NCBI GenBank assembly: GCA_003635185.1
Contig: PYJA01000044.1
Coordinates: 24,680 to 88,679 of the forward strand
DNA length: 64,000 bases
Reading direction: 5' to 3'
From: Candidatus Poribacteria bacterium
GTDB lineage: Bacteria; Poribacteria; WGA-4E; WGA-3G
Shown here: piece by piece, positions 4,372-63,990 of the stretch
Layout: every line of letters begins with the position of its first letter
Numbering within the stretch: position 1 is the stretch's first letter
Position numbers and translations under genes: made by a program
Notes under the pieces: generated by a model
Told to the model about the DNA's origin: nothing
The model's database searches: none
Seen by the model: only the letters and a program-made list of their open reading frames with translations

Positions 4372-4917
4372 TTACATTGTGAATTCATAGACAAGATCTG
4401 TGTTCGGTGCGTCTTTGAGACGTAAAATAATCGTACCTGCTTCCTGTTGGTACGCTTCTTGATACATAGTTTTGATTGGTGTGAGATCGAAGTGATACTC
4501 TTCAGTTGGGTACGCTTCACAAGGGTCATTGTTGGCATTGTGAACAATAGAAACACCGAGCTGAACGGGATCCGATTCCATGAATGCATTATTTGCGATG
4601 AGAGTGAATTCGTGTTTTTTACAACCACCGCTGTAAGATACAGAGATTGTAAGGGTATCATCTGCTATGGTAGCACTGTTGAGTTCGTAAGCATCGTTTC
4701 CCCATTTATCCGTGTCATTCACGCCAGGTTCTAAAATGACGACATCACCCCACACTTTTGGGACATCAACGGGGGCATCATCCCGTGAAATGGAAATGAG
4801 ACCGTCAGGGTCTGAATCTGTGTCGGTTCCATTTAGGGCAGACTTCATCTTTTCGCAACCCATGGCAAATAGGATGACAAGAAAAAACAAAAAATAGGCA
4901 ACTTTTTTAAGGAACAT
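4372..4917 (-). CDS. Putative lipoprotein, paralogue of 2400-2975
   Basis: [28 protein letters not shown] lipobox; high similarity to the other copy. Confidence 0.75.
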   Translation of the reverse strand: MFLKKVAYFLFFLVILFAMGCEKMKSALNGTDTDSDPDGLISISRDDAPVDVPKVWGDVVILEPGVNDTDKWGNDAYELNSATIADDTLTISVSYSGGCKKHEFTLIANNAFMESDPVQLGVSIVHNANNDPCEAYPTEEYHFDLTPIKTMYQEAYQQEAGTIILRLKDAPNTDLVYEFTM

Positions 4918-5039: not shown

Positions 5040-7430
5040 TTACATGCCTAACCAATTACTGATGACACCACCATATTTTGCAATGAGACCTGCAAACACA
5101 ACAGAAACCATAGACATCAACTTAATTAAGATATTGAGAGAAGGTCCTGAAGTATCTTTGAAGGGATCGCCAACGGTATCACCGACAACGGTAGCTTTGT
5201 GTTGTTCTGAGCCTTTTTCCCCGTATTCGTCTTTGTGGCTACCTTCTTCAATAAACTTTTTCGCGTTGTCCCATGCACCACCAGCGTTTGCCATCATAAT
5301 TGCTAAGACAAAACCTGTGGCTAATCCGCCTGCAAGTAAACCTAACACACCAGCAACATTAAAAATTAATCCGACAGCGACAGGTACAACGATAGCAATT
5401 AGTGAAGGAAAAATCATCTCGCGTTGTGCGCCAACAGTAGAGATAGCGACACATCGGGCGTAATCCGGCTTTTCCTCACCTTTCATAATGCCGGGTTTCT
5501 CTCGAAATTGACGGCGAACCTCGTCTACCATAGCACTCGCAGCACGTCCGACAGCTTTCATCGTCAACGCGCAGAAATAGAATGCCATGACCGCACCGAT
5601 AAATAGACCAATAAGAACTTGGGGATTCATCAGTGTAACGTTATAATAATCCATGAATTGACTCACTGTGACCTTCAAGGTATCTATACTCCCTTCACCG
5701 GGGATATTTAGTTCCTCTTTGCCTGCTAAATGGATAAGTCCGTGCCGAATTTCTTCAAGATAAGCTGCAAGAAGTGCAAGTGCTGTTAGTGCAGCAGAAC
5801 CGATAGCAAAGCCCTTACCTGTTGCGGCTGTTGTATTACCGAGCGCATCTAACTGATCCGTACGTCCGCGAACGCTTTCGTCCAGTTTTGCCATTTCTGC
5901 GTTTCCGCCAGCGTTATCTGCGATGGGGCCATAAGCATCTGTGGCAAGCGTAATACCGAGTGTGGCAAGCATACCAACAGCAGCGATGCCGACACCGTAA
6001 AGTCCCATCAGTGGTTGAAACTCATCAAATGCATCTGCACCACCGGGAAGATAGTAGCTAACGGCAACTGCACCGATAATTGTAATAACAGGTATTGCAG
6101 TTGATTCCATGCCAACAGCAACACCTTCAATAATCACCGTTGCCGGACCGGTTTGTGCCTGCTTCGCGATAGCACGCGTCGGTTTATACTCGTGAGAGGT
6201 AAAGATTTCGGTAACCTTACCGATAATCAGACCTGCGACAAGTCCAGCGATAATCGCACCCCAAACCTGCCACTTATTGGGAAGGTCAAGGTAAATAAGC
6301 ACCGGAAGTGACACAATAGCGATGCCCAAAGCACTACCATTGATACCAAGATTCAAGGAACCCATCAACTGCCTCATTGATGCCCCCTCTTTTGTGCGCA
6401 CCATATAGATACCCAAAATAGAGAGAAGTACACCGATACCAGCGATAATCATTGGGGCGGAGAGGTATTTGAGTTGAAGGGCAAGGTTATTGTAGTCATT
6501 CGCAGCAACAGCAGCAACACCGAGGGCAGCCGTTGCAAGGATTGAGCCTGCATAAGATTCATAAAGATCAGCACCCATACCCGCAACATCACCGACGTTA
6601 TCACCGACGTTATCTGCAATCACGGCGGGGTTGCGCGGATCGTCTTCAGGGATTCCCGCCTCAACTTTTCCCACAAGATCAGCACCGACATCCGCTGCTT
6701 TGGTATAAATACCACCACCAACGCGGGCAAACAGTGCCTGTGTTGAAGCACCCATACCGAAACTGAGCATAATCACAGTAATCTGAGGTAGCGGATTTAC
6801 GCCTAAAAAATCGGTGCCTATCCAAGGAATCTTAGGAAAAACGTAATAGAGAATGAGAAACCATCCCGTAATGTCAAGTAGTGCAAATCCGACAACTATC
6901 AATCCCATCACAGCGCCTGCGCGGAACGAAACTCTTAGACCGGCATTAAGTCCTTGCATCGCCGCACTTGTCGTACGCGCAGATGCGTTAGTTGCAGTTT
7001 TCATGCCGAGAAAACCGCAGAGTCCTGAGAAAAAACCGCCAGTGAGAAATGCAAACGGAACAACCTGATTTTGTGCCTTAAGAACAAAAGCCATAAAGAT
7101 AAAAATCAGGCAGAGAACAGCGAAAACAATGCCTACGACTTTATATTGTTGTCTAAGATACGCCATCGCACCTTCACGCACAGATTGTGCGATTTCACGC
7201 ATTGTGTCATTCCCTTCGTCCTGTTTCATCACAGAGCGATAAAAGTGGAATGCAAAACCTAAAGCGATAAGTGACCCGATCGGGGCAATCCACCAAATTA
7301 AAGGTACGGGTGGATTTTCTGTAATGGTGTCTGATTGGGCAAAAGCTACGGTGGCTAAACAAAATACAGTTAAGCAGATTAGAATTAACTTCCAATTTAA
7401 CCACCGTCTTTTGCAAGTAATTTCACGCAT
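5040..7430 (-). CDS. hppA: Membrane-bound ion-pumping pyrophosphatase, K+-dependent type
   Basis: DNVGDNVGDVAGMGADLYESY, GNTTAATGKGFAIGSAALTA, DTVGDPFKDTSGPSLNILIKL. Confidence 0.95.
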   Translation of the reverse strand: MREITCKRRWLNWKLILICLTVFCLATVAFAQSDTITENPPVPLIWWIAPIGSLIALGFAFHFYRSVMKQDEGNDTMREIAQSVREGAMAYLRQQYKVVGIVFAVLCLIFIFMAFVLKAQNQVVPFAFLTGGFFSGLCGFLGMKTATNASARTTSAAMQGLNAGLRVSFRAGAVMGLIVVGFALLDITGWFLILYYVFPKIPWIGTDFLGVNPLPQITVIMLSFGMGASTQALFARVGGGIYTKAADVGADLVGKVEAGIPEDDPRNPAVIADNVGDNVGDVAGMGADLYESYAGSILATAALGVAAVAANDYNNLALQLKYLSAPMIIAGIGVLLSILGIYMVRTKEGASMRQLMGSLNLGINGSALGIAIVSLPVLIYLDLPNKWQVWGAIIAGLVAGLIIGKVTEIFTSHEYKPTRAIAKQAQTGPATVIIEGVAVGMESTAIPVITIIGAVAVSYYLPGGADAFDEFQPLMGLYGVGIAAVGMLATLGITLATDAYGPIADNAGGNAEMAKLDESVRGRTDQLDALGNTTAATGKGFAIGSAALTALALLAAYLEEIRHGLIHLAGKEELNIPGEGSIDTLKVTVSQFMDYYNVTLMNPQVLIGLFIGAVMAFYFCALTMKAVGRAASAMVDEVRRQFREKPGIMKGEEKPDYARCVAISTVGAQREMIFPSLIAIVVPVAVGLIFNVAGVLGLLAGGLATGFVLAIMMANAGGAWDNAKKFIEEGSHKDEYGEKGSEQHKATVVGDTVGDPFKDTSGPSLNILIKLMSMVSVVFAGLIAKYGGVISNWLGM

Positions 7431-7459
7431 TAAAAACCTCTCTTTTTATATTTATATTC

Positions 7460-9300: not shown

Positions 9301-10554
9301 TTAATTTAGATATTCATAAATTGGGAATTGCGCGCAGAATTCTTGAACCTTTTCTCGAATTCGCTGCTTTATAGATGCCTTCTGCCTATTCTCAAGTGCC
9401 TCAGTAATAAAATCCGCGATGTGAAGCATCTCATCTTCTTTCATGCCGCGCGTCGTAACCATTGGTGTGCCAAGCCTTATACCGCTTGTCGTTTTCGGTT
9501 TCCTTTTGTCAAACGGAATTGTGTTCTTATTCACAATAATGCCTGCATCCTCAAGGTGATCCGCTGCCTGTCTACCACTCAATTTCTCATATTTTGAAGT
9601 CAAGTCTAACAACATTAGGTGATTATCTGTACCACCACTCACTAATCGGAACCCATTCTCCATTAATCTCTCGGCAAGTGCTTTAGCATTTTTAACGATT
9701 TGTGCTTGATATGTTTTAAACTCAGGTTCGCTTGCTTCCTTAAAAGCAACGGCTCTGGCAGCGATTGTATGCAAAAAAGGCCCGCCTTGTAAACCGGGAA
9801 AAACAGCACGGTCTATTTTAGCTGCATGCTCAGATTTACACATTATCATCGCCCCACGAGGACCACGTAAGGTTTTGTGTGTTGTTGTCGTAACCACATC
9901 ACTATAAGGAACAGGATCAGGATGAACACCACCCGCGATCAGACCCGCAATGTGCGCTATATCCGCAAGCAGATATGCCCCAACGGAGTCGGCAACCTGC
10001 CGCCACGCAGCGAAATCAAAATGACGTGGATACGCTGTTGCCCCGACAACGATGAGCTTCGGACGATGTTGTTCCGCAAGACTCGCCACCGCTTCCATGT
10101 CAATTAGTTCCGTTTCAGCGTCAACTCCATAAGCTACAACATTGTAATAACGCCCAGAAAAGTTCACCTTATCGCCATGACTCAAATGCCCACCGTGACT
10201 GAGTGACATAGCTAAAATAGTGTCACCTGGGTCAAGCAGTGCATGATAAGCTGCCATATTCGCTTGTGTGCCAGCGTGCGGTTGCACATTCACATGCTCA
10301 GCACCGAAAAGTGCTTTGGCACGTTCAATTGCAAGCGATTCCACGTCATCCATAAACTCACAACCGTTATAGTAACGTTCACCAGGATACCCTTCAGCGT
10401 ATTTATTCGCTAAAATACTCCCCTGAATCTCCATAACGGCACGGCTGGCATAGTTCTCTGATGGAATCAGCATAAGAGAATTTTGCTGACGTGCCAAGTC
10501 CTTGGCGGTAATTTCTACGATTTGTGGGTCTACCTCTGCCAATAATTTGTTCAT
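9301..10554 (-). CDS. glyA: Serine hydroxymethyltransferase
   Basis: [60 protein letters not shown]; start set at [12 protein letters not shown]. Confidence 0.95.
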
Positions 10555-12514: not shown

Positions 12515-12748
12515 TTTATCAGTGAATAAACAGGTATGTAGTTGAAAGTATAATAATTGCAAAGACAATTAAACTGTAAAATGTCCAAAATTACTAATTG
12601 CGATAGATTTTACATTAAAGATACACCTTGATCGGCGCGCTTACAAAGTGCTAAATCAACGCCGAATGTGCGTATGGCATTTATCGGAGTTGAAAACCCC
12701 TCCTACAAAAGAGATGTAGTATTCACGCCAAAAACTTTACATACCCTC

Positions 12749-12879
12749 AGGACTTACGCATTTTCTCTTAAAGTCCCCTTGATAAGGGGGATTTAGGGGG
12801 TTAAAAAGACTAAAAACAGTGAAATACGGACTATTTAACCCCCCTAACCCCCCTTATCAAGGGGGAATGCGTAAGTCCT
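12749..12879. repeat. MITE-like palindromic element, family A
   Basis: Near-identical to 13238-13368; inverted ends CAGGACTTACGCATT / AATGCGTAAGTCCTG. Confidence 0.85.
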
Positions 12880-13115
12880 GAACATTATAATAACAATTCG
12901 TCAAGGAATTTTATTATCAAATTCACTAAATGGTTGACTCGGTAAGTATTTGCGTTTTGAATTCTCTAAATACACCCCCCTTTATCCCCCCGCAAGCGAG
13001 GGGAAGGGACTTTTGAACCTATTACGTAAGTTTTGTACATAATAAATGTTTAGCGAGTAAACCACTAAAGAAATCCCAGAAAAGTTAACTTCTAAAAATT
13101 GACGCTAATGGTGCT

Positions 13116-13170: not shown

Positions 13171-13237
13171 CTATTATTGGCGGAGGTATTGCTTACCTTA
13201 ACACAATCTAAATGCCAACATCAAATAAACTCTTTAC

Positions 13238-13368
13238 AGGACTTACGCATTTTCTCTTAAAGTCCCCCTTGATAAGGGGATTTAGGGGGTTAAAAAGACT
13301 AAAAACAGTGAAATACGGACTATTTAACCCCCCTAACCCCCCTTATCAAGGGGGAATGCGTAAGTCCT
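13238..13368. repeat. MITE-like palindromic element, family A
   Basis: Inverted ends CAGGACTTACGCATT / AATGCGTAAGTCCTG; flanked by TTTA on both sides (possible TSD). Confidence 0.85.
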
Positions 13369-13437
13369 GTTTATATACCCTTGACCTTTTCCCTGGTGTA
13401 TGGTAAGCTTAAGATGCCTATGACCGGGGTATGAGAT

Positions 13438-49496: not shown

Positions 49497-49623
49497 ATGT
49501 CAATTGAGTGCCTGATTTTCTTGTTGGAGGGCTTTGGAAGCCCGATTTTTTGAAACCTAATCCGTTAAATCGGGGTTAGAAACCCCTCCAACAATAGGAT
49601 ATATCCTTAAATTGACACCTATG
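49497..49623. repeat. MITE-like element, family B
   Basis: ATGTCAATTGAGTGCCTGATTTTCTTGTTGGAGGGCTTTGGAAGCCCGATTTT...CCTCCAACAATAGGAT...TTAAATTGACACCTAT; near-identical to 57683-57813. Confidence 0.8.
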
Positions 49624-51508: not shown

Positions 51509-53107
51509 ATGGCAAGAGAAGTCCGACCGGACGAAATATCTAATATACTAAAACAGCAGCTGCAACAGTTTGAACAGGACGTAGATGTCTACGACTCTGG
51601 CACTGTGCTGGAGGTAGGCGACGGTATCGCACGGGTGCATGGGCTTGCCAACGCAATGGCGAGCGAAATGATTGAATTCCCGAACGATATTTACGGCATC
51701 GCTTTTAACCTTGAAGAAGACAACGTCGGTTGTGTGCTGTTCGGTGAAGACCAACTTATACATGAAGGCGATACCGTAAAACGCACAAATAGGCTGCCTG
51801 AAGTGCCTGTCGGTGAGGCACTCCTCGGACGGATCGTTGATGCACTCGGACAACCCATTGATGGCTTGGGAGATATTCACACAGAACATAGACTCCCTGT
51901 GGAACAGAAAGGGTTAGGTATCGTTCAACGGCAACCTGTCAGTGAACCACTTTACACAGGCTTAAAAGCTATTGATAGTTTAACACCAATCGGTAGAGGA
52001 CAGCGGGAACTCATTATCGGTGACCGCAGAACTGGTAAAACTGCAATCGCAATAGATGCAATCCTCAGCCAGAAGAACACAGATGTTTATTGCTTTTATG
52101 TTGCTATCGGTCAAAAGGGTTCTACGCTGGCGCAAGTTGCGAATACCCTTCGTGAACATAATGCGATGGAATATACCACCATCGTCTCAGCACCTGCAAG
52201 TGCGCCGTCACCGCTGCAATATCTTGCTCCCTACTCTGGCACTTCAATGGCGGAATACTTCTGCCATAACGGCAAACACGCGCTTATCATCTACGATGAT
52301 CTGACAAAACATGCGTGGGCATACCGCCAAATGTCACTGCTTTCACGCAGACCGCCGGGGCGTGAAGCATATCCTGGTGATGTGTTCTATCTACATTCAC
52401 GCCTATTAGAACGGGCTGCGAAACTTAGCGACGAGTTGGGAGGCGGTTCACTCACCGCGCTACCGATTATTGAAATCTTTGAAGGTGATTTGACGACCTA
52501 TATTCCGACAAACGTTATCTCAATCACTGATGGGCAGATATACTTAACAACGGATCTATTCAATCAAGGTGTGAGACCCGCTATTGATGTTGGTACGTCT
52601 GTTTCGCGTGTTGGAGGTGATGCGCAGGTCAAAGCAATGAAATCGGACGAAGTTGCAGGCACACTAAAACTTGATCTTGCAAGTTTCCGAGAAGTTGCTG
52701 CCTTTGCACAATTCGGATCGGATCTGGATGCATTAACACAATCTCTGCTCTTACGCGGCACGAGGCTTGTAGAATTGCTGAAACAACCGCAATATCAACC
52801 GATGCCTGTTGAAAGAGAAGTTGCCTCTATCTTCTGCGGTACAAACGGCTATTTAGATGATGTTCCTGAATCAGAAGTTGCACGGTTTGAATCTGAATTC
52901 CTGCAGTCCCTTGACAGGAATCATGCAGAACTCCTTTCAGAAATCGCAGAAACCGGTCTGTTGAGTGATGAATTGCTTGAAACCTTGCACGCCGCAGCAA
53001 AGGCATTCAAGGAAAATTGGAGTGATACACCGCCAGCGCATCCGCAAATTGAGGAAGTGCCAGCAGCAGAGGACACAGGCACAGAAACACCGACAGAAGG
53101 TGAATAA
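51509..53107 (+). CDS. atpA: F1Fo ATP synthase subunit alpha
   Basis: [44 protein letters not shown]. Confidence 0.97.
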
Positions 53108-53163
53108 CCATGGCAACGTTACGAGAAATTCGGTGCCGTATCGCCAGCATTAAAAACATTGAG
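53009..53163 (+). repeat. Left copy of atpA 3' / atpG 5' direct duplication flanking the R-M pair
   Basis: AAGGAAAATTGGAG...GAAGGTGAATAACCATGGCAACGTTACGAGAAATTCGG(T)GCCGTATCGCCAG(C)ATTAAAAACATTGAG. Confidence 0.95.
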
Positions 53164-53232
53164 TTTTCAGGAAGTTTTAAAAATGTGAGTTTAGTTCGCT
53201 TCCGATCTGAAATAAGGACAATAAAATGGTAA
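53110..53232 (+). pseudogene. Truncated atpG 5' fragment (18 native codons then unrelated tail)
   Basis: MATLREIRCRIASIKNIE identical to AtpG start except one residue, then FSGSFKNVSLVRFRSEIRTIKW*; stop overlaps the ATG at 53226. Confidence 0.9.
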
Positions 53233-54206
53233 AGACCATTGATGAGAAAGTCAATACCGTTTTAACGCAAAATACTTTCTGGTTTCAGGATAGAGAGTTT
53301 GAGGAAAAGTACGAAGCGAATATTACTGTTCTGAAAGAAACCTTACTTGTGTTGAGAAATGAGATTCAAAATCAAGGTCTGACCAAGAAATTACTTGAAG
53401 ACTTACTTTTGAAAAAAGCAAACGGGTTAAAGGTTTTGCTGACACTCACAGGATTATCCAACGAATCCTTTAAGCGGTTAGTTAGTTTTATTAGGGTCGT
53501 TGATGATGCGGAACTTTCAAAATTCTCTTTTAGAGATCAATGGATAGAAGAATCAGAATTAGAAAGCCTTGATATAAGAGAGTGGTCTGATTCAAAAATC
53601 GAAAGTAAAATTCGGGAGAATGTATATTTTAGAAAAGGTATTGTCAACCTTTTTTATGAAGGTTCAACTATTCCTTTGCTATCTAAAACTCTCCCACTGT
53701 TTGAGTTAAAAAAGTTAAGCTGTTCTAAACTGAAATTTGACATTGAAGCAATGATTGATACTTTGATCCGCTATAAAGAAAAAGGCTCTTATTCGGGCAA
53801 AATGAAAAATAATCCAGAAGTCACTATCGGTAAACTCTTAGACGACATAGAAATTAGTTTTGAGAGCGGCGACCTAAATAAACTGAAAGAACACGCTCCA
53901 ACCGAGAAACGTACAATGGATTTTATCATTCCCAATCAAGAAAATCCCCAAATTATTATTGAGTCATCATATTTGACAACGACTTCTTCAGGCCAAGGCG
54001 ACAAAGCGAAAACTGAGAATCACATTAGACACTTACTTAAAGAACATTACCCTAACGCGCGCTTTTGGGGATTTGTTGACGGTATCGGGTGGTATGTTCG
54101 GAAAAACGATTTGCGAAGAATGGTTGAAGCGTTTGAAGATGTTTTCACTTTGGAAGAATCGGAACTTAAACGTTTCCAACAATCGTTAATTGCCGTTTTA
54201 AAATAA
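53226..54206 (+). CDS. Putative type II restriction endonuclease (PD-(D/E)xK-like, partner of adjacent methyltransferase)
   Basis: Adjacent to DNA methyltransferase; EKRTMDFIIPNQENPQIIIESSYLTTTSSGQGDKAKTENHIRHLL resembles an endonuclease core. Confidence 0.65.
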   Translation: MVKTIDEKVNTVLTQNTFWFQDREFEEKYEANITVLKETLLVLRNEIQNQGLTKKLLEDLLLKKANGLKVLLTLTGLSNESFKRLVSFIRVVDDAELSKFSFRDQWIEESELESLDIREWSDSKIESKIRENVYFRKGIVNLFYEGSTIPLLSKTLPLFELKKLSCSKLKFDIEAMIDTLIRYKEKGSYSGKMKNNPEVTIGKLLDDIEISFESGDLNKLKEHAPTEKRTMDFIIPNQENPQIIIESSYLTTTSSGQGDKAKTENHIRHLLKEHYPNARFWGFVDGIGWYVRKNDLRRMVEAFEDVFTLEESELKRFQQSLIAVLK

Positions 54207-54247
54207 CAGAACGTTAATAATCCCTCATGATTTATTTAAGGTGTACT

Positions 54248-55219
54248 ATGGACAAATTTATCAACAAAATCATTCACGGCGATTGTATAGAGGTTATGCA
54301 GCAAATTCCTTCAGATAGCATTGATGTTACATTTGCTGATCCGCCTTTTAATCTGAAAAAAAATTACGGGAATTACAAGGACGAAAAGAATACAGACGAT
54401 TATCTCAGTTGGTGTAAACAGTGGATCCTTGAAATGATAAGAATAACAAAACCGAGTGGATCCATTTTTCTTCACAATATCCCTAAATGGCTTACCTATT
54501 ATGCTGAGTTTCTAAACGAAGTTGCAGATTTTCGCCATTGGATCGCATGGGACGCGCCAACTGCACCTATGGGCAAAACTTTGCAACCCTCGCACTATGG
54601 CATTTTGTTTTATGCAAAGAATCAACAGGAAAACAAATTTTATGAAATTCGGTATCCACATAAGCGATGTCGCAAATGTGGATACTTGTTAAAAGACTAC
54701 GGTGGAAAAAAGAAAATTCTACACCCTTTTGGACCGCTTGTTTCTGATATATGGTCGGATATTCACCGCATTCGTCATAATAAACATAGAGACCCACATC
54801 CATGCCAACTTCCAGTACATCTTTTAGAACGTATTCTTTTAATGAGCACAGACGAAGGGGATGTCGTTTTAGATCCATTTATGGGGACAGGCACAACCGC
54901 CGTTGCTGCCGCAAGATTGGGAAGGAACGTTATCGGCATAGATATCGATCCTCAATATGTCCAAATTACTAAAAAGAAATTAGCACAGGAATCCCCAAAC
55001 TCTAAAATTGAGGATATTTGGGTAAGTTTTTATCTCGGTGAAATTGTTACAATTGTTGATAAAGATTGGGAACTGTTGAAGTCGTCCTTTGTGATACCAG
55101 AAGATATGAAGTGTATTGACTTCAAAAAAATCAAAACTAATGGCGGAGTCATTACCACGGCACCGCAGACCCGTCAACTTTCTTTAGATCTTAAAGAGGA
55201 AAAATGTGACTGTTATTAA
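54248..55219 (+). CDS. Type II DNA methyltransferase (beta-type motif order, DPPF)
   Basis: VTFADPPFNLKKNYGNYKD; VLDPFMGTGTTAVAAARLGRNVIGIDID; start set at MDKFINKIIHGDCIEVMQ. Confidence 0.92.
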   Translation: MDKFINKIIHGDCIEVMQQIPSDSIDVTFADPPFNLKKNYGNYKDEKNTDDYLSWCKQWILEMIRITKPSGSIFLHNIPKWLTYYAEFLNEVADFRHWIAWDAPTAPMGKTLQPSHYGILFYAKNQQENKFYEIRYPHKRCRKCGYLLKDYGGKKKILHPFGPLVSDIWSDIHRIRHNKHRDPHPCQLPVHLLERILLMSTDEGDVVLDPFMGTGTTAVAAARLGRNVIGIDIDPQYVQITKKKLAQESPNSKIEDIWVSFYLGEIVTIVDKDWELLKSSFVIPEDMKCIDFKKIKTNGGVITTAPQTRQLSLDLKEEKCDCY

Positions 55220-55313
55220 AGGAAAATTGGAGGGACACACCACCATACCAACCACAAACCGAGGAAGTGCAAACTGAAGAAACAGAAGAAGCACCCACAG
55301 AAGGTGAATAACC

Positions 55314-57651
<2,338 letters not shown>

Positions 57652-57682: not shown

Positions 57683-57813
57683 TATAGGTATCAATTTAGT
57701 GCCTGATTTTCTTGTTGGAGGGCTTTGGAAGCCCGATTTTGTGAAACCTAATCTGTTAAATCGGGGTTGAAAACCCCTCCAACAATAGGATATTTTCTTA
57801 AATTGACACCTAT
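57683..57813. repeat. MITE-like element, family B, in the atpD-atpC gap
   Basis: TATAGGTATCAATTTAGTGCCTG...TTAAATTGACACCTAT; flanked by GGGTAGAGCGCCAGCGAAACC at 57662 and 57814. Confidence 0.85.
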
Positions 57814-57941
57814 GGGTAGAGCGCCAGCGAAACCCAACTTATAGACTGCATGTAGTTTTGCCAAACTGGCAAAACGGATTACGTGAATAATTATTATTTG
57901 CCAAGAGAAACCTAACCGAACGCTTGGCGCAAGGTTAAAAA

Positions 57942-58349
57942 ATGTTAAACAGAAGTTTTCACCTTGAAATACGCACACCAGAAAAACTGATTTACGAAGG
58001 CGATGTGACCAGCGTTAACGCGCCGGGAATTGAAGGCAACTTCCAAATTCTATACGGACACATCCCTTTCCTTACAGCCTTAGATGTCGGTGAAATCCGT
58101 GTCAATGAATCGGAAACGCCGCGGTCAATGGCGACAAGTGGCGGCGTTTTTGAAGTGCTACGCACGGGTGTCACCGCATTGGTTGAAACAGCAGAATGGG
58201 CATCGGATATTGACGTGACACGTGCTGAAAATGCACTTGAACGGGCCCAAGAGCAACTTGCTGCAGATACACCGGATTTAAATCGCCCACGTGCTGAAGC
58301 GGCCCTTGCGCGTGCGCAAAATCGGATTAAGGTTGCAAGCGATTTGTAA
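57942..58349 (+). CDS. atpC: F1Fo ATP synthase subunit epsilon
   Basis: FHLEIRTPEKLIYEGDVTSVNAPGIEGNFQILYGHIPFLTALDVGEIRV. Confidence 0.95.
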   Translation: MLNRSFHLEIRTPEKLIYEGDVTSVNAPGIEGNFQILYGHIPFLTALDVGEIRVNESETPRSMATSGGVFEVLRTGVTALVETAEWASDIDVTRAENALERAQEQLAADTPDLNRPRAEAALARAQNRIKVASDL

Positions 58350-58436
58350 GTATCACTCCGATGCGTCCATTTTTACACAAAAAACTTGAGACAGATCAGA
58401 ATTGTCAGTATAATTAACCATAAGAAGACTTAATTG

Positions 58437-58877
58437 ATGCCGCTTCCTAATTTGAACGATGCAGGTGAATTGCCTATAGGAATACATCAAGCTACAATTG
58501 ATGAGGTGATTGCTCAATTTGGCAGCGGAACCTTACAGCGAAAAATTGTGACTACACGTTTGCAAAGAATCTATCAAATCGTTAAAGGGACGGGAAACCT
58601 TCAGCAATTGATTATTTTTGGAAGCTATATTACGGCGAAGCCCGAACCTAACGATGTGGATGTTGTGGTTATCTTTAGTGACGATTTTGACCTAACGGTT
58701 TGCAACGAGGAAGTAAAAAGACTTTTGGACCATCAACAAGCAGAAAACGAATTCGGAGCCAGTATATTTTGGATACGTCCATCGTTACTGTTGTTTCAGA
58801 CACTTGAGGAGTTTATTGAAAGTTGGCAAGTTAAACGTGACGGGACGCGGCGCGGTATCGTAGAGGTGAGAAAATGA
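58437..58877 (+). CDS. Nucleotidyltransferase-like protein
   Basis: LQQLIIFGSYITAKPEPNDVDVVVIF (GS...DxD). Confidence 0.7.
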   Translation: MPLPNLNDAGELPIGIHQATIDEVIAQFGSGTLQRKIVTTRLQRIYQIVKGTGNLQQLIIFGSYITAKPEPNDVDVVVIFSDDFDLTVCNEEVKRLLDHQQAENEFGASIFWIRPSLLLFQTLEEFIESWQVKRDGTRRGIVEVRK

Positions 58878-59119
58878 TTCAGAATGACAAAGAGCTCAAA
58901 GTAAGTCAAGAACGCATAGCGTATTTTCAAGACTTGCTCTTACAACTGCGGGTTAAGGCAACACCTGAAGAATTTGCGCTCATCTCAACTGGATATCGGA
59001 CTGAAATTCTGAAAATGCAAGATGAAGTGCTCGAATACTTGACTCGCCATTCATGTGAACCGATACCTACGAATACGACTGCTGCAGAGATATCAGGTGC
59101 TTCAACTAATGGGAACTGA
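58874..59119 (+). CDS. Small partner protein of the nucleotidyltransferase (putative TA pair)
   Basis: 81 aa; 4 nt overlap with upstream gene; VSQERIAYFQDLLLQLRVKATPEEFALISTGYRTEILKMQDEVLEYLTRH. Confidence 0.65.
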   Translation: MIQNDKELKVSQERIAYFQDLLLQLRVKATPEEFALISTGYRTEILKMQDEVLEYLTRHSCEPIPTNTTAAEISGASTNGN

Positions 59120-59142
59120 TAATCGTTCAAACATTTGTCCTG

Positions 59143-59335
59143 GGTTGAAACAGTAGGGTGGGCATCGGATATTGACGTAGCACGTGCTGAAAGTGCGCTT
59201 GAACGTGCCAAAGAACAACTTGCGACAGATGCGCCCGATTTGAATCGTCCACGTGCAGAAGCGGCACTTGCCCGCGCACAAAATCGGATTAAGGTTGCAA
59301 GCGATTTGTAAGCATCGCTCCGATGCGTCGATTTT
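59143..59335 (+). repeat. atpC 3'-end copy C1 (incl. stop codon)
   Basis: Encodes VETVGWASDIDVARAESALERAKEQLATDAPDLNRPRAEAALARAQNRIKVASDL* versus native VETAEWASDIDVTRAENALERAQEQLAADTPDLNRPRAEAALARAQNRIKVASDL*. Confidence 0.97.
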
Positions 59336-59433
59336 CCAATTAAAATCTTATACGCTTTTATTTAAAATTTATTGATGTTTTTGCTGTGATATGTTAAAAT
59401 GGTTTCTAAGTCTACGAGAGGTTTGTCCACAAT

Positions 59434-59856
59434 ATGCGCCTTGAGAATTATGAACCTGCCGAATATAAACTCAGCAAGTCCCAAGTCGAAAAGCAAAAGC
59501 GTGAAATATCAGCGCAATTTGATATCCTATCACAACGGGAAGATAATTGGGATGGACGCGGTTCACAAAAACCAACCGAATTAACATTAGTGCACGCGAA
59601 AGTGATTATGAACGCATTGTTAGATTCTGTCACTTCCGTCGGATATCAGTGCGATATGCCATCTATCTCCAGCGATGGAGACGGCTATGTAACCGCAGTA
59701 TGGTACAAAAACGAACGGCAATTACACCTTCAAATTGGAGAACATGAGGCTGAATACTTCAAAGTTTGGGGCACGAATATTGATACAGAGATGGACGCAG
59801 ACTTTCTAAAACCTGAAAATTACCTACCGCTTTGGAAATGGTTAATTGATGAATAG
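59434..59856 (+). CDS. Uncharacterised protein with NWDGRGS motif (first gene of a pair)
   Basis: ILSQREDNWDGRGSQKPTELTLVHAKVIMNALLDSV; overlaps next gene by 11 nt. Confidence 0.7.
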   Translation: MRLENYEPAEYKLSKSQVEKQKREISAQFDILSQREDNWDGRGSQKPTELTLVHAKVIMNALLDSVTSVGYQCDMPSISSDGDGYVTAVWYKNERQLHLQIGEHEAEYFKVWGTNIDTEMDADFLKPENYLPLWKWLIDE

Positions 59857-60316
59857 CAGAAAGCCCGTGCAAGATAATGAGGAACTTTATCGAAACGTAC
59901 GAGGCAAATTGGAAGATAAGGAATATACAATTCAAGATGGAAAACTCATAATTGAGTATCACGCCTTTTGGGATTCATCTTTGAAACCGTCTGTAGATAG
60001 AGCGAAGTTAAAAGATTTCGAGCCTACTTCGGCTCTATTATGTGAAACGAATGGTATTGTTAGCATTCAAGCGGGTGATGTCCGCGCAATAGGAACTGTA
60101 AAAACGAAACATAAGAATGAAGTGATAGCTGTTCATGCCGTAGATGTTATCCCTGATCCAACACCTGAAAATCCAGCACATGCCATAATTATTGTAAAAC
60201 CTGAATTTTTTGATTCTAAAAGCAAGCAGAAAAATGCATTCAAGTTACTACAAATCGCACTTGCTCAGCTTGCTACTAAAAGCGGATGGACTTTAGAACC
60301 AAACCCGCAGGAATAA
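59846..60316 (+). CDS. Uncharacterised protein (second gene of a pair)
   Basis: NEELYRNVRGKLEDKEYTIQDGKLIIEYHAFWDSSLKPSVDRAKLKDFEPT. Confidence 0.7.
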   Translation: MMNSRKPVQDNEELYRNVRGKLEDKEYTIQDGKLIIEYHAFWDSSLKPSVDRAKLKDFEPTSALLCETNGIVSIQAGDVRAIGTVKTKHKNEVIAVHAVDVIPDPTPENPAHAIIIVKPEFFDSKSKQKNAFKLLQIALAQLATKSGWTLEPNPQE

Positions 60317-60331
60317 CCAAAAGCGTTTTTC

Positions 60332-60490
60332 GGATATTGACGTAGCGCGTGCTGAAAATGCACTTGAACGTGCCAAAGAACAACTTGCGGCAGATGCGCC
60401 CGATTTGAATCGTCCACGTGCTGAAGCGGCACTTGCCCGCGCACAAAATCGGATTAAGGTTGCCAGTAATTCGTAAGCATCACTTTGCAG
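60332..60490 (+). repeat. atpC 3'-end copy C2 (incl. stop codon)
   Basis: Encodes SDIDVARAENALERAKEQLAADAPDLNRPRAEAALARAQNRIKVASNS*. Confidence 0.97.
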
Positions 60491-60545
60491 GTGTGTAAAG
60501 TTTTTGGCAAAGTTGTCAGGACATTTAGAAATCTTCTAATCTTTG

Positions 60546-60782
60546 CTAAGCAGACCTTAACAATTTTTCGACATTCCATTTAATAGTTGGTGGTGGAAGT
60601 GTTTCATTTTCTTGGCGTGCAACTTCTATCCATTCATCAACAATCTCACACAACTCGCGATACACCTCAACTTCATCATCACCATGACAACACGTGCCGA
60701 TAATTCCTGGGCAAAACCCAATAAAACATTGGTCCTCGTCTGACCATTTCACAATTTTAATATACTTTGCGCTATCTGTCAT
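60546..60782 (-). CDS. HicB-like antitoxin (orphan)
   Basis: IKIVKWSDEDQCFIGFCPGIIGTCCHGDDEVEVYRELCEIVDEWIEVARQENETLPPP. Confidence 0.65.
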   Translation of the reverse strand: MTDSAKYIKIVKWSDEDQCFIGFCPGIIGTCCHGDDEVEVYRELCEIVDEWIEVARQENETLPPPTIKWNVEKLLRSA

Positions 60783-60850
60783 TATTGAGACTCCTCAATT
60801 TTTCTTTTAACTTCCTTTAATAGTAACACACATGCCTTGTTGAATTGAGA

Positions 60851-61357
60851 TTAGAGATAACCTGCCTCGGAGAGTAAGTTCGCGAGGTTATTTTTTCTGC
60901 CACAACGTCCTGTCAGGACCGTCAAAGTTTTACCTTTGAATTTCATCTTAAGTTCTCGTTTTTGATGTTTTGGATTAGCCTCTCTAATACCCCTCTTGGT
61001 AAACACAATTGGAACGTAGACAGGCTCTTTTAAATCCTGCACGAGTGTAGCGGCAAATTCTAAACCGCTTTTCAACTGATCAAGCACTTGTGATTCGTCG
61101 CCTTTACCACGACCTTTGAGTTCAATTGGAACAGCAAAGAGGATATTTCTATTCCTGTAAAACAGCAGCCGGTCACACCGTTTTCTGCTATCTCCGCGTA
61201 AATCAAACTCTTTCTCTACATTTATCACGATCTTCTGTCTGGGTATGTCGGTCCGGTATACCTTACACCCTTCTCCGCCGCAGTCATTAGTGAGGCTGTC
61301 TGGAGACACCTGCTCTTGAACGTGCGTAAGTCCTTTACTCAGATTCAACCGCATCAC
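60851..61357 (-). CDS. PD-(D/E)xK-like nuclease candidate, second gene of ATPase pair
   Basis: FDLRGDSRKRCDRLLFYRNRNILFAVPIELKGRG (D...ExK-type core). Confidence 0.55.
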   Translation of the reverse strand: MMRLNLSKGLTHVQEQVSPDSLTNDCGGEGCKVYRTDIPRQKIVINVEKEFDLRGDSRKRCDRLLFYRNRNILFAVPIELKGRGKGDESQVLDQLKSGLEFAATLVQDLKEPVYVPIVFTKRGIREANPKHQKRELKMKFKGKTLTVLTGRCGRKNNLANLLSEAGYL

Positions 61358-62777
61358 TCCCTTTCATTTGCTCAATTCTATTTTGTAATCCTGCCGAACG
61401 GTTATAGAGATCCTCCGCTATATCCAAATGATCCTCCGGTTCTATACCTTCAACAAGGTCAAATGGGAGTTCTGTGACCGGCTCGTTCTTATGGAACTGC
61501 CACGCGCCTACCTCTTCCGCTTTCAGCCAGTCTGCTGATTCACTTGTGGGTTTTCCGTGTTTTTGCAATTCACCTTCGCGAATTAGGTTGCTGATTTGTT
61601 GGAGGAGATAGTTGCTATGGGTTGTAATCACGACGCGAACACCGGCTCGGATCAAACGAGCAAGGGTTTGGGCGATCTTAGTTTGCGCACCTGGGTGCAG
61701 GTGAGATTCAGGTTCTTCAATAATGAGCAAGTCACCCTGTTTAACAATACTTCGCAGAAAGAGGACTAAAGGCGCAAGCTCAGACACCATTGCAGAGGAG
61801 TGACTCATCCGCAGTGCCTCTTCTGCCTGATCTGGACGGTACAGAAATTCCGGAGACGCTTCTGGTGTGGGGCGTTCAACCTCTATTTTCCCCTCCAGCA
61901 GCTCTGCTTCCAGTTGTTCAGCAACGCGACGTATATTACTTGACGATCCCTTGTGTTCCTTGTAGTTAACGATCTGCTGCAGAAAATCTGCTACCATTCC
62001 CGAAAACATAGATAATTCAAAGCGATCTAAACCGAGACGCGTCGACCACTTGATAAGGGCAGTCGCAAGCACATCGCGGCTTTGCATGATCCCGCTGCGG
62101 ACAGCAGGCAAGTAATATGAATACCCTTCCTGCCACTGATCAGTACGTAAAGTCTGCAATAGGTGTTCAACATCAGGCACCGGACAGAATTCTGTCTTAC
62201 GTTTTGCGTCAAGAAGAACCATGTCTGGATTGATACGACCTATTATCGTAGGATCAGCGGATCCAGAGGCACGTACCTCAAAATCCCAAAACTTATGTTC
62301 TTTATCCCGAACCGTCAGTGAAACTTTCATTTCTTTGTCTTGACTCTCAGTGAATCGAATTAACTTGGAAACATCCTCAAGATTGAAACACCGTTTCAGC
62401 TCATTTGGGAAGTCTTCCTGATGTGTAAGTCCATACGCCAACGTGACTTGTATCCGTTGCGGTAAGTCGGAAAATTTGAACGGACGCTCAGGCGTGTTTA
62501 ACTTGTCGAGTGCCGCTAACATCTCTTGTTCTAACGCCTCCCATTGATCTTGTGGATAATGGTCAGGTGAACGGAGAACAAAATCGAAATAAGAAGCAGT
62601 AGAGTCTGCCCAAGGAAATTGTGAGATGCCCCCAAAATTCTCGTATAATGCGTAAATGAGAGCGGCGAGATATGTCTTACCAGTGTTACTCTCACCGACA
62701 AATACAGTCAGCGGGCGCAGGTCTATCTCTGCCTTTTCTATGGGACCGAAGTTTTTTACGTTAATATAGGCGTTCAC
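61335..62777 (-). CDS. AAA (ABC/OLD-like) ATPase
   Basis: LTVFVGESNTGKTYLAALIYALYE; GDLLIIEEPESHLHPGAQ; RVVITTHSNYLL; GTG start at 62777 preceded by GGAGAAG. Confidence 0.85.
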   Translation of the reverse strand: MNAYINVKNFGPIEKAEIDLRPLTVFVGESNTGKTYLAALIYALYENFGGISQFPWADSTASYFDFVLRSPDHYPQDQWEALEQEMLAALDKLNTPERPFKFSDLPQRIQVTLAYGLTHQEDFPNELKRCFNLEDVSKLIRFTESQDKEMKVSLTVRDKEHKFWDFEVRASGSADPTIIGRINPDMVLLDAKRKTEFCPVPDVEHLLQTLRTDQWQEGYSYYLPAVRSGIMQSRDVLATALIKWSTRLGLDRFELSMFSGMVADFLQQIVNYKEHKGSSSNIRRVAEQLEAELLEGKIEVERPTPEASPEFLYRPDQAEEALRMSHSSAMVSELAPLVLFLRSIVKQGDLLIIEEPESHLHPGAQTKIAQTLARLIRAGVRVVITTHSNYLLQQISNLIREGELQKHGKPTSESADWLKAEEVGAWQFHKNEPVTELPFDLVEGIEPEDHLDIAEDLYNRSAGLQNRIEQMKGSDAVESE

Positions 62778-62859
62778 TGCTTCTTCTCCTATTGGTGATG
62801 ACTTTGAATTAATTATATATTCATCAGTGATCAATAGCAAGGAAATGAATCGATAAATC

Positions 62860-62907
62860 GCACTTGCGCGTGCGCAAAATCGTATTAAGGTTATGAACAA
62901 TTCGTAA
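62860..62907 (+). repeat. atpC 3'-end copy C3 (short, incl. stop codon)
   Basis: GCACTTGCGCGTGCGCAAAATCGTATTAAGGTTATGAACAATTCGTAA = ALARAQNRIKVMNNS*. Confidence 0.88.
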
Positions 62908-62964
62908 TTACTTCTTCCAGTTTTCCGGTAAGCGCGCTTTGTAAGCGTGCTTTACCTTCCCGCC

Positions 62965-63990
62965 TTACTCATTGAGGATACGAAGCACATCCTCAATTTC
63001 GGCTTTGAGATTTGCATCGCCTGCTTTTATTGCAAGCCGCAAAGCATTACGTAGGTCTTGCCTTGCTTCCAGCGTGCGACCTAAAAGAGCCTTCGCAAGT
63101 CCCCGAGTGTAGTATGCCAAAGCATCATCAGGTTTGAGTCGGATAGCCATAGTATAGTCTGCAATTGCACCCACATGATCTCCAGTTTTCAACTTCGCAA
63201 TTCCCCGATTGACGTATGCTTCGGCATCATCAGGTTTTAGTCTTATAGCGATGTCAAAATCGGCAATCGCAGCAAAGTATTGTTCTAAGTCAGCCTTCGC
63301 AACTCCCCGATTGACGTAGGCATTGGCAGCATCAGGTTTGAGTCGGATAGCATGGGTATAGTCTGCAATAGCACCCTTATAATCTCCAAGTTTATGTTTT
63401 GTATATGCCCACAAGAAGTATGTCTCAGCAGATATAGATTGTTTTCCTTGTGATAAAGGTTTTGCTGGCTTCTTCTGCTCCAGCAGTTTCTTGAGATATT
63501 TTGATGGTATAGCAAAATTGAGATTCTGTGCATCCAAAGATTTATAGACAGCAAAGGACACCCCAATCACTTCACCTTTCCTATTTAGCACAGGTCCGCC
63601 ACTGCTCCCTGGAGAAATCGGCGCAGTCATCTGCAGGCGTTCTTTCGTGAGTTTATCTCTGCGGCTACTGATAATACCATCCGAAAACGTGCCTTCCAAA
63701 CCTTTCGGATTTCCCGCAACGTAAACCGTCTCACCAACCCGAACTTTATCACTATCTCCGAGAGAAAGCGGTTTAATACCGAACGCTGTTACTTTTAGCA
63801 GTGCAAGGTCGTTTGTCTTGTCAGTAGCAGTAACGCCTTCAATATTGTATGTTGTGTTTTTACCGACTAACTTTGCAGTGCCTTTGGCTGCGCCTTCAAT
63901 CACGTGGTAGTTGGTAGCAATAAGGTTGGATTTCACAAAGAATCCGCTGCCAATGCCCAAAGTTTTGCCATTTTTATCCTGCATTTCCAA
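62965..63990 (-). CDS. Trypsin-like serine protease with TPR repeats (probably extends beyond window)
   Basis: NLIATNYHVIEGA, DLALLKV, ISPGSSGGPVLN; then YVNRGVAKADLEQYFAAIADFDIAIRLKPDDAEA TPR units. Confidence 0.85.
   Translation of the reverse strand: MEMQDKNGKTLGIGSGFFVKSNLIATNYHVIEGAAKGTAKLVGKNTTYNIEGVTATDKTNDLALLKVTAFGIKPLSLGDSDKVRVGETVYVAGNPKGLEGTFSDGIISSRRDKLTKERLQMTAPISPGSSGGPVLNRKGEVIGVSFAVYKSLDAQNLNFAIPSKYLKKLLEQKKPAKPLSQGKQSISAETYFLWAYTKHKLGDYKGAIADYTHAIRLKPDAANAYVNRGVAKADLEQYFAAIADFDIAIRLKPDDAEAYVNRGIAKLKTGDHVGAIADYTMAIRLKPDDALAYYTRGLAKALLGRTLEARQDLRNALRLAIKAGDANLKAEIEDVLRILNE

Follow-up and report, generated by a model that had tools for sequence, protein, structure and literature searches.

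Accessory modules stacked behind atpC in Poribacteria between displaced copies of the gene's own 3' end

In a 64,000-nucleotide stretch of the genome of a Candidatus Poribacteria bacterium (contig PYJA01000044.1, positions 24,680 to 88,679; hereafter the window, or W), the intact atpC gene is followed by a ladder of displaced copies of its own 3' end, which separate accessory modules of unrelated content. We consider it likely that this ladder is a stack of imports, in which incoming DNA was anchored by homology within atpC, joined illegitimately at its free end and, in later rounds, exchanged from tail to tail, apparently with no dedicated recombinase behind the insertions. This group of Poribacteria lives in marine sponges, and the window comes from a metagenome-assembled genome (MAG) of 141 contigs and 82% completeness. 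In what follows, a displaced 3' end is called a displaced tail (t in cargo orders), loci of relatives carry L numbers, genomes carry G numbers (G000 being the window's own), and g1 and g2 are genera.

The functional atpC gene, encoding the epsilon subunit, occupies 57942-58349 on the + strand (PF02823 8e-23, PF00401 7e-13). Comparison of the window with itself by blastn revealed four atpC 3' ends in the same direction, one functional and three displaced (C1, C2 and C3). The functional, proximal tail (58181-58373, repeat family D1) aligns with C1 (59143-59335) over 193 bp at 87% identity (E 4e-62), with C2 (60330-60484) through its positions 58203-58357 over 155 bp at 86%, and with C3 (62860-62910) through 58302-58352 over 51 bp at 82%; C1 and C2 (59165-59319 against 60330-60484) are 93.5% identical to each other. 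Every copy lies on the + strand, keeps the atpC frame and terminates at the stop codon or a few bases beyond it, and a search of the whole genome found no atpC tail copies outside these four places. The ladder described in the original prediction, which was made from the sequence of the window alone, is real, with the start of C2 now placed at 60330 and the end of C3 at 62910.

Between the tails, reading frames and Pfam matches show the unrelated gene sets that had been described there. Module A, the cassette nearest atpC, comprises a DUF6932 nucleotidyltransferase (58437-58877, + strand; PF22014 8.5e-26; PADLOC PDC-M63A 1.3e-9) and an open reading frame for a small partner (58874-59119, +); the pair also occurs behind atpC in L113 and at other places in further genomes. 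Module B consists of two open reading frames on the + strand, one for an NWDG protein (59434-59856) with homologs at atpC in L086, L088, L075 and L098 and at other loci, and one for a second protein (59846-60316) whose homolog adjoins the first in L075 and at non-atpC loci. Between C2 and C3, on the - strand, lie a HicB-like (UPF0150) gene (60546-60782; PF21748 2.7e-4, below the cut-off), beside which no HicA was found, and a pair made up of a PD-(D/E)XK-like protein (60851-61357; motif recognized by eye, no Pfam match, weak match to PADLOC PDC-M47B at 0.007) and an AAA_15/AAA_21 ATPase (61335-62777, start placed from relatives; PF13175 3.8e-24; PADLOC PDC-M47A 2.5e-34). The original prediction had grouped these three genes as one set; the genes are all present, but the HicB-like gene (module C, the same cassette in L083, L098 and L075) and the ATPase pair (module D) are separate cassettes in relatives. 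The PADLOC models tie module D to the candidate defence system PDC-M47 and module A to PDC-M63A, and the cargo probably serves in defence or as toxin-antitoxin genes. Two further arrangements of these modules were observed. In L114 (10453-16600), a subtilase gene splits module A, and the proximal atpC tail recurs downstream together with the start of the module (99% identity across the tail); in L158 (G009), module D lies away from atpC between 127-bp direct repeats (4771-4897 and 7242-7368, 95%), apparently an intergenic element.

The differences between functional and displaced tails are mostly synonymous, which argues that they are alleles of different strains and not the products of local duplication. 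Between the functional tail and C1, there are 15 synonymous against 7 nonsynonymous changes (dN/dS 0.11); for C2, the counts are 15 and 5 (0.08). The pooled dN/dS over in-frame displaced atpC tails is 0.19. Under a null model of copies that start out identical, with neutral evolution of the displaced one (mean omega 0.55), the two window tails gave P values of 3e-3 and 8e-4, a displaced gene end at another locus (ALDH, below) 3e-6 and the pooled set 3e-13. That the gene ends diverged as functional alleles of different strains, as had been proposed, is thus upheld. Twelve of the 22 displaced family tails of at least 100 bp are frame-broken, so the scars decay later. In the tail trees, the displaced tail of L098 stands apart from its own atpC, with a clade of its own rejected by the approximately unbiased (AU) test (p 0.004-0.018), and the tails adjoining modules B and D in three genomes cluster together (83/73).

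A search of other genomes for displaced atpC 3' fragments, together with a comparison of synteny downstream of atpC, shows that the site is indeed an insertion hotspot, with varied cargo reshuffled between species and with empty sites. Of the 52 distinct family genomes in which an atpC locus is present, 21 have one or more displaced tails behind the gene. The order in the window is A-t-B-t-C,D-t, where L075 has F-t-x-t-MNT/HEPN-t-B-t-D-t-C-t, L086 has B-t-E-t-D-t and L098 has C-t-F-t-B; single cassettes are found in L083 (C-t), L084 (E-t) and L127 (A-t). The further modules of relatives have Pfam matches to Uma2, HEPN/nucleotidyltransferase, PIN (weak), Schlafen AlbA_2 and AAA_35. Modules start at, or a few bases from, the stop codon that closes the atpC copy before them, and the truncation point of the tail that follows tends to be particular to each cassette type, ranging from ~50 to >190 bp between cassettes. 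The right flank is conserved among relatives as a trypsin/TPR gene or a PhyH-like gene; in the window, it is the trypsin-like/TPR gene at 62965-63990 on the - strand (PF13365 7e-32 plus TPR), whose 102-bp TPR repeats (63081-63430) differ in copy number among relatives.

At the empty sites L064, L094 and L132, a stretch with a GGTAGGCGCGC-type hairpin follows immediately after atpC. At many loaded sites, including the window, sequences aligned at the stop codon have this stretch only behind the last displaced tail, and the distal tail is therefore read as the original gene end. In the window, the terminator-like hairpin is at 62927-62956 (+ strand; -17.6 kcal/mol, z -3.6; compared with L064, L094 and L132), just beyond C3. 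The assignment is based on this fold and on the reading of the stop-aligned sequences; the fold controls did not give the expected hairpin (L132 folds weakly, and L064 was folded on the wrong strand). C3 thus appears to be a remnant of the original gene end, and the functional tail is read as the newest one. This retains the earlier proposal that the ends derive from different strains and alters its direction, in that the imported end would be the functional one, with the displaced copies being earlier ends and the last of them the original, still with its hairpin.

Recombination joints can be located in a pair of loci from different genera, L123 (g1) and L080 (g2), which have module A in common. 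The two are ~80% identical through atpC and 97-100% identical from ~48 bp before the stop codon, over ~900 bp, and the high identity drops at the start of the right-hand displaced tail. The last ~25 bp of the L123 atpC gene are of the g2 type, and the displaced tail of L123 is of the g1 type. These identity steps and tail types show that, at either end, the recombination joints fall within the atpC tails, with the exchanged tract extending into the flanking core gene, and they bear out intergeneric transfer with joints in the atpC tail. Modules are more alike than core genes in other genome pairs as well, for example the window's module A partner gene and its counterpart in L100 (93.5% against ~85%). 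Two other features of these loci were recorded. In L123 (G017, 10001-10390), the C-terminal part of atpC carries a ~31-34 bp deletion and a frameshift, and the displaced tail has a near-identical deletion; and in both L123 and L080, ~130 bp bounded by inverted ends (TACCATTTCT...AGAAATGGTA) are inserted between the stop codon of atpC and module A.

The same architecture at gene X, proS and ALDH indicates that atpC is a hotspot and not a unique system. At gene X of genus g2, the displaced tail in G060 still overlaps the following gene through the original ATGA, like the empty site in G059; in G073, for which G030 provides the empty site, module B separates gene X from its tail. Module B is thus found behind two different genes, atpC and gene X, with two different tails. 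At proS in G009, there are two displaced tails; in this ladder (L203, G009:C1:1080001-1100000), both tails have the same left truncation and similar flanks, and an aspartyl-protease-like gene is among the cargo. In the chromosome assembly G034, the last 208 bp of a gene that we take, by eye from its sequence, to be an aldehyde dehydrogenase (ALDH) are displaced behind a 201-aa reading frame, with a terminator-like hairpin still after them, and the tail pair is 94% identical with 13 synonymous and 0 nonsynonymous differences. Scanning 1.2 Mb of the chromosome assemblies of two relatives yielded roughly seven clean cases of displaced ends, many other matches being internal repeats or paralogs; a small control of 0.2 Mb from E. 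coli K-12 yielded none. A cassette system specific to atpC, as originally predicted, is not borne out, and an atpC-specific attachment site is ruled out by the same or a similar pattern at gene X, proS, ALDH and the atpA/atpG junction.

This junction lies in the atp operon of the window, where a restriction-modification (R-M) system, with a DpnII-like restriction enzyme and a DNA methyltransferase (53226-55219, + strand; PF04556 1e-6, PF01555 2e-52), sits between atpA and atpG within a 159-bp duplication of the atpA end and atpG start (left copy 53005-53163, right copy 55215-55367 by self-blastn, both +; 83%); atpA and atpG are both intact. Two other repeats in the window were noted, a 124-bp intergenic repeat before and inside the atp operon (49500-49623 and 57691-57814, 94%), which is probably a dispersed element, and a 134-bp direct repeat whose copies (12748-12880 and 13237-13369, 98.5%) are separated by 357 bp, a third one lying near 7458.

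Consistent with the earlier expectation of stacking without an encoded recombinase, no integrase was found among the reading frames and Pfam matches of the window array, and few recombinases were found elsewhere. G000 has one tyrosine recombinase gene, on another contig; six other genomes have 1-2 each over the cut-off; and serine recombinases are absent from three of the four genomes searched for them. The only recombinase-like gene in the modules examined with Pfam is an IS605-type TnpB in L080. ComEC was detected in 18 of 19 genomes searched. Two other candidates were rejected. Carriage by phage found no support, as a module A protein, a module D protein and atpC all lack relatives among viral contigs, and a small palindrome (GCATC..GATGC) after some atpC stop codons was dismissed as a site, since it folds no better than shuffles in the window and other cassettes begin with unrelated sequence.

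We propose that each import would bring in DNA of a related strain with its own atpC end and an accessory module. On one side, homologous recombination inside atpC would make the imported end the functional end of the gene. On the other side, the first import would be joined illegitimately inside the recipient's old atpC tail, as in homology-facilitated illegitimate recombination; once resident cassettes end in an atpC tail, later imports could use homologous recombination from tail to tail. The old tail and its hairpin would be pushed downstream as a scar, and therefore the newest module would adjoin atpC and the oldest gene end would stand at the distal side. The process probably depends on RecA, uptake may occur by transformation, and the first step is presumably an illegitimate joining.

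Several observations weigh against this stack of imports. In L086, the distal tail is intact and the proximal one is broken, which contradicts a strict newest-first order. The pooled P of 3e-13 is somewhat biased because only in-frame tails were used and some share one functional tail, and the tail pairs of one genome are not independent in the synonymous/nonsynonymous test. The tail trees are weak because the tails are only 50-190 bp long; thus, in the tree comparison that had been suggested for the window, a clade of the window's own tails was not rejected (AU p 0.40, short tails and low power), and the origin of C1 and C2 is left undecided by the tree alone, whereas the corresponding clade for L098 was rejected. 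In L075, displaced tail f1 groups with its own atpC (99/95), and in L114, displaced tail f1 is 99% identical to its own atpC, both of which fit duplication in place, gene conversion or a donor that was very closely related. In L123, the interior of both tails, with the deletion that they share, is the host's own sequence; the interior of the displaced tail thus matches the host's tail, so conversion or duplication is at work as well. Finally, ComEC homologs are also present in bacteria for which no competence is known.

Insertion with long target duplication, in which the flanking tails are two copies of one target, would produce the same topology, and the DpnII-like R-M system inside the atpA/atpG junction duplication of the same operon, along with the near-identity of the L114 tail, speaks for it. 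We nevertheless think it improbable, as the copies do not look like repeats that were identical at birth: they differ mainly at synonymous sites (synonymous to nonsynonymous 13:0 at ALDH and 15:7 in the window, with L114 as a possible exception), homology extends no further than the stop codon, even at ALDH with its 94% identity, and the last 25 bp of the functional L123 gene are foreign. Plain tandem duplication of atpC ends within one lineage, with gradual decay and no connection to the cargo, could explain the frame-broken tails and the grouping of the L075 tail with its own gene; it is very improbable given that the tails bracket unrelated modules differing among species, that dN/dS is near 0.1 between the window copies, and that L123 and L080 record a transfer between genera with joints in the tails.

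Integration at the 3' ends of icd, prfC and trmE replaces the gene end synonymously and displaces the original end. Satellite-type elements that are moved by a site-specific recombinase in trans, and rebuild the gene end from a copy that they carry, would likewise leave the pattern of alleles and displaced ends seen here. To this explanation we give little credence: tail truncation points differ between cassettes, which does not fit a single crossover core and a restored end of fixed length; module B stands behind atpC and gene X with different tails; no integrase was seen in the modules examined; and in the seven genomes searched, tyrosine recombinases over the cut-off number only 1-2 each and serine recombinases are mostly absent. 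A broader alternative, that an undescribed dedicated mechanism lands defence-type modules behind housekeeping stop codons throughout the genome, making gene 3' ends general landing pads for integrase-free traffic, seems unlikely to us. Although the window derives from a fragmented and incomplete MAG, an artefact of assembly and binning is scarcely credible, since the same structures occur within chromosome-level assemblies (L080/G034, L099/G080 and L114) and in many independent MAGs.

The stack of imports has its closest counterpart in the immunity gene arrays of the Vibrio cholerae type VI secretion system (T6SS), for which sequential displacement of effector genes by homology-facilitated illegitimate recombination has been proposed (Kirchberger 2017, PMC5361080). 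In those arrays and in orphan Rhs tips, as here, an incoming end and module are anchored by upstream homology, the old 3' end is shifted downstream with the newest beside the intact gene, and an illegitimate step is proposed to precede ordinary homologous exchange. As expected of sequential displacement, anchor-gene 3' ends lie in a row behind the intact gene in Poribacteria, and the ends of one genome come from different strains by the substitution tests and the L098 tree (AU p 0.004). The displaced ends of the T6SS arrays, however, belong to effector genes functionally tied to the cargo, whereas in Poribacteria a housekeeping gene that has no evident connection with the cargo serves as the anchor, its protein hardly changes, and several genes in the genome act as anchors.

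Insertion with long target duplication has been described both for R-M systems and for genes of other kinds (Nobusato 2000, cited in PMC1643837 and PMC3031569), and it shares with the present loci a transposase-less module of R-M-type cargo between long direct repeats of variable length; the Poribacteria repeats, however, are alleles that differ synonymously and not a fresh duplication, and one site carries a stack of several insertions. Recombination hotspots at core genes likewise combine conserved flanks with fast cargo turnover and no integrase, but recombination here runs through the copies of the tail within the array, where a ladder of scars remains. Integron arrays resemble the ladder in stacking small modules behind a fixed point, with a recurring sequence after each and the newest proximal. 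They differ in that neither an integrase gene next to the array nor attC-type sites were found here, the recurring sequence being a segment of a housekeeping gene. Separate precedents exist for displacement arrays, for long-target-duplication insertions and for recombination hotspots at core genes. What is new is the use of a housekeeping gene as a repeated anchor, the sharing and reshuffling of ladders of gene ends across two genera, and an allele signature that separates import from duplication; no prior description of such housekeeping-gene end ladders was found in the literature searched.

For these bacteria, the ladders would provide a recombinase-free route by which defence and toxin-antitoxin-type genes can be stacked behind essential genes with no harm to those genes, and the scars would record the order and origin of every import. 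They also suggest that some of the unexplained "long target duplication" repeats of restriction systems may be two alleles that were joined, and not one target that was copied.

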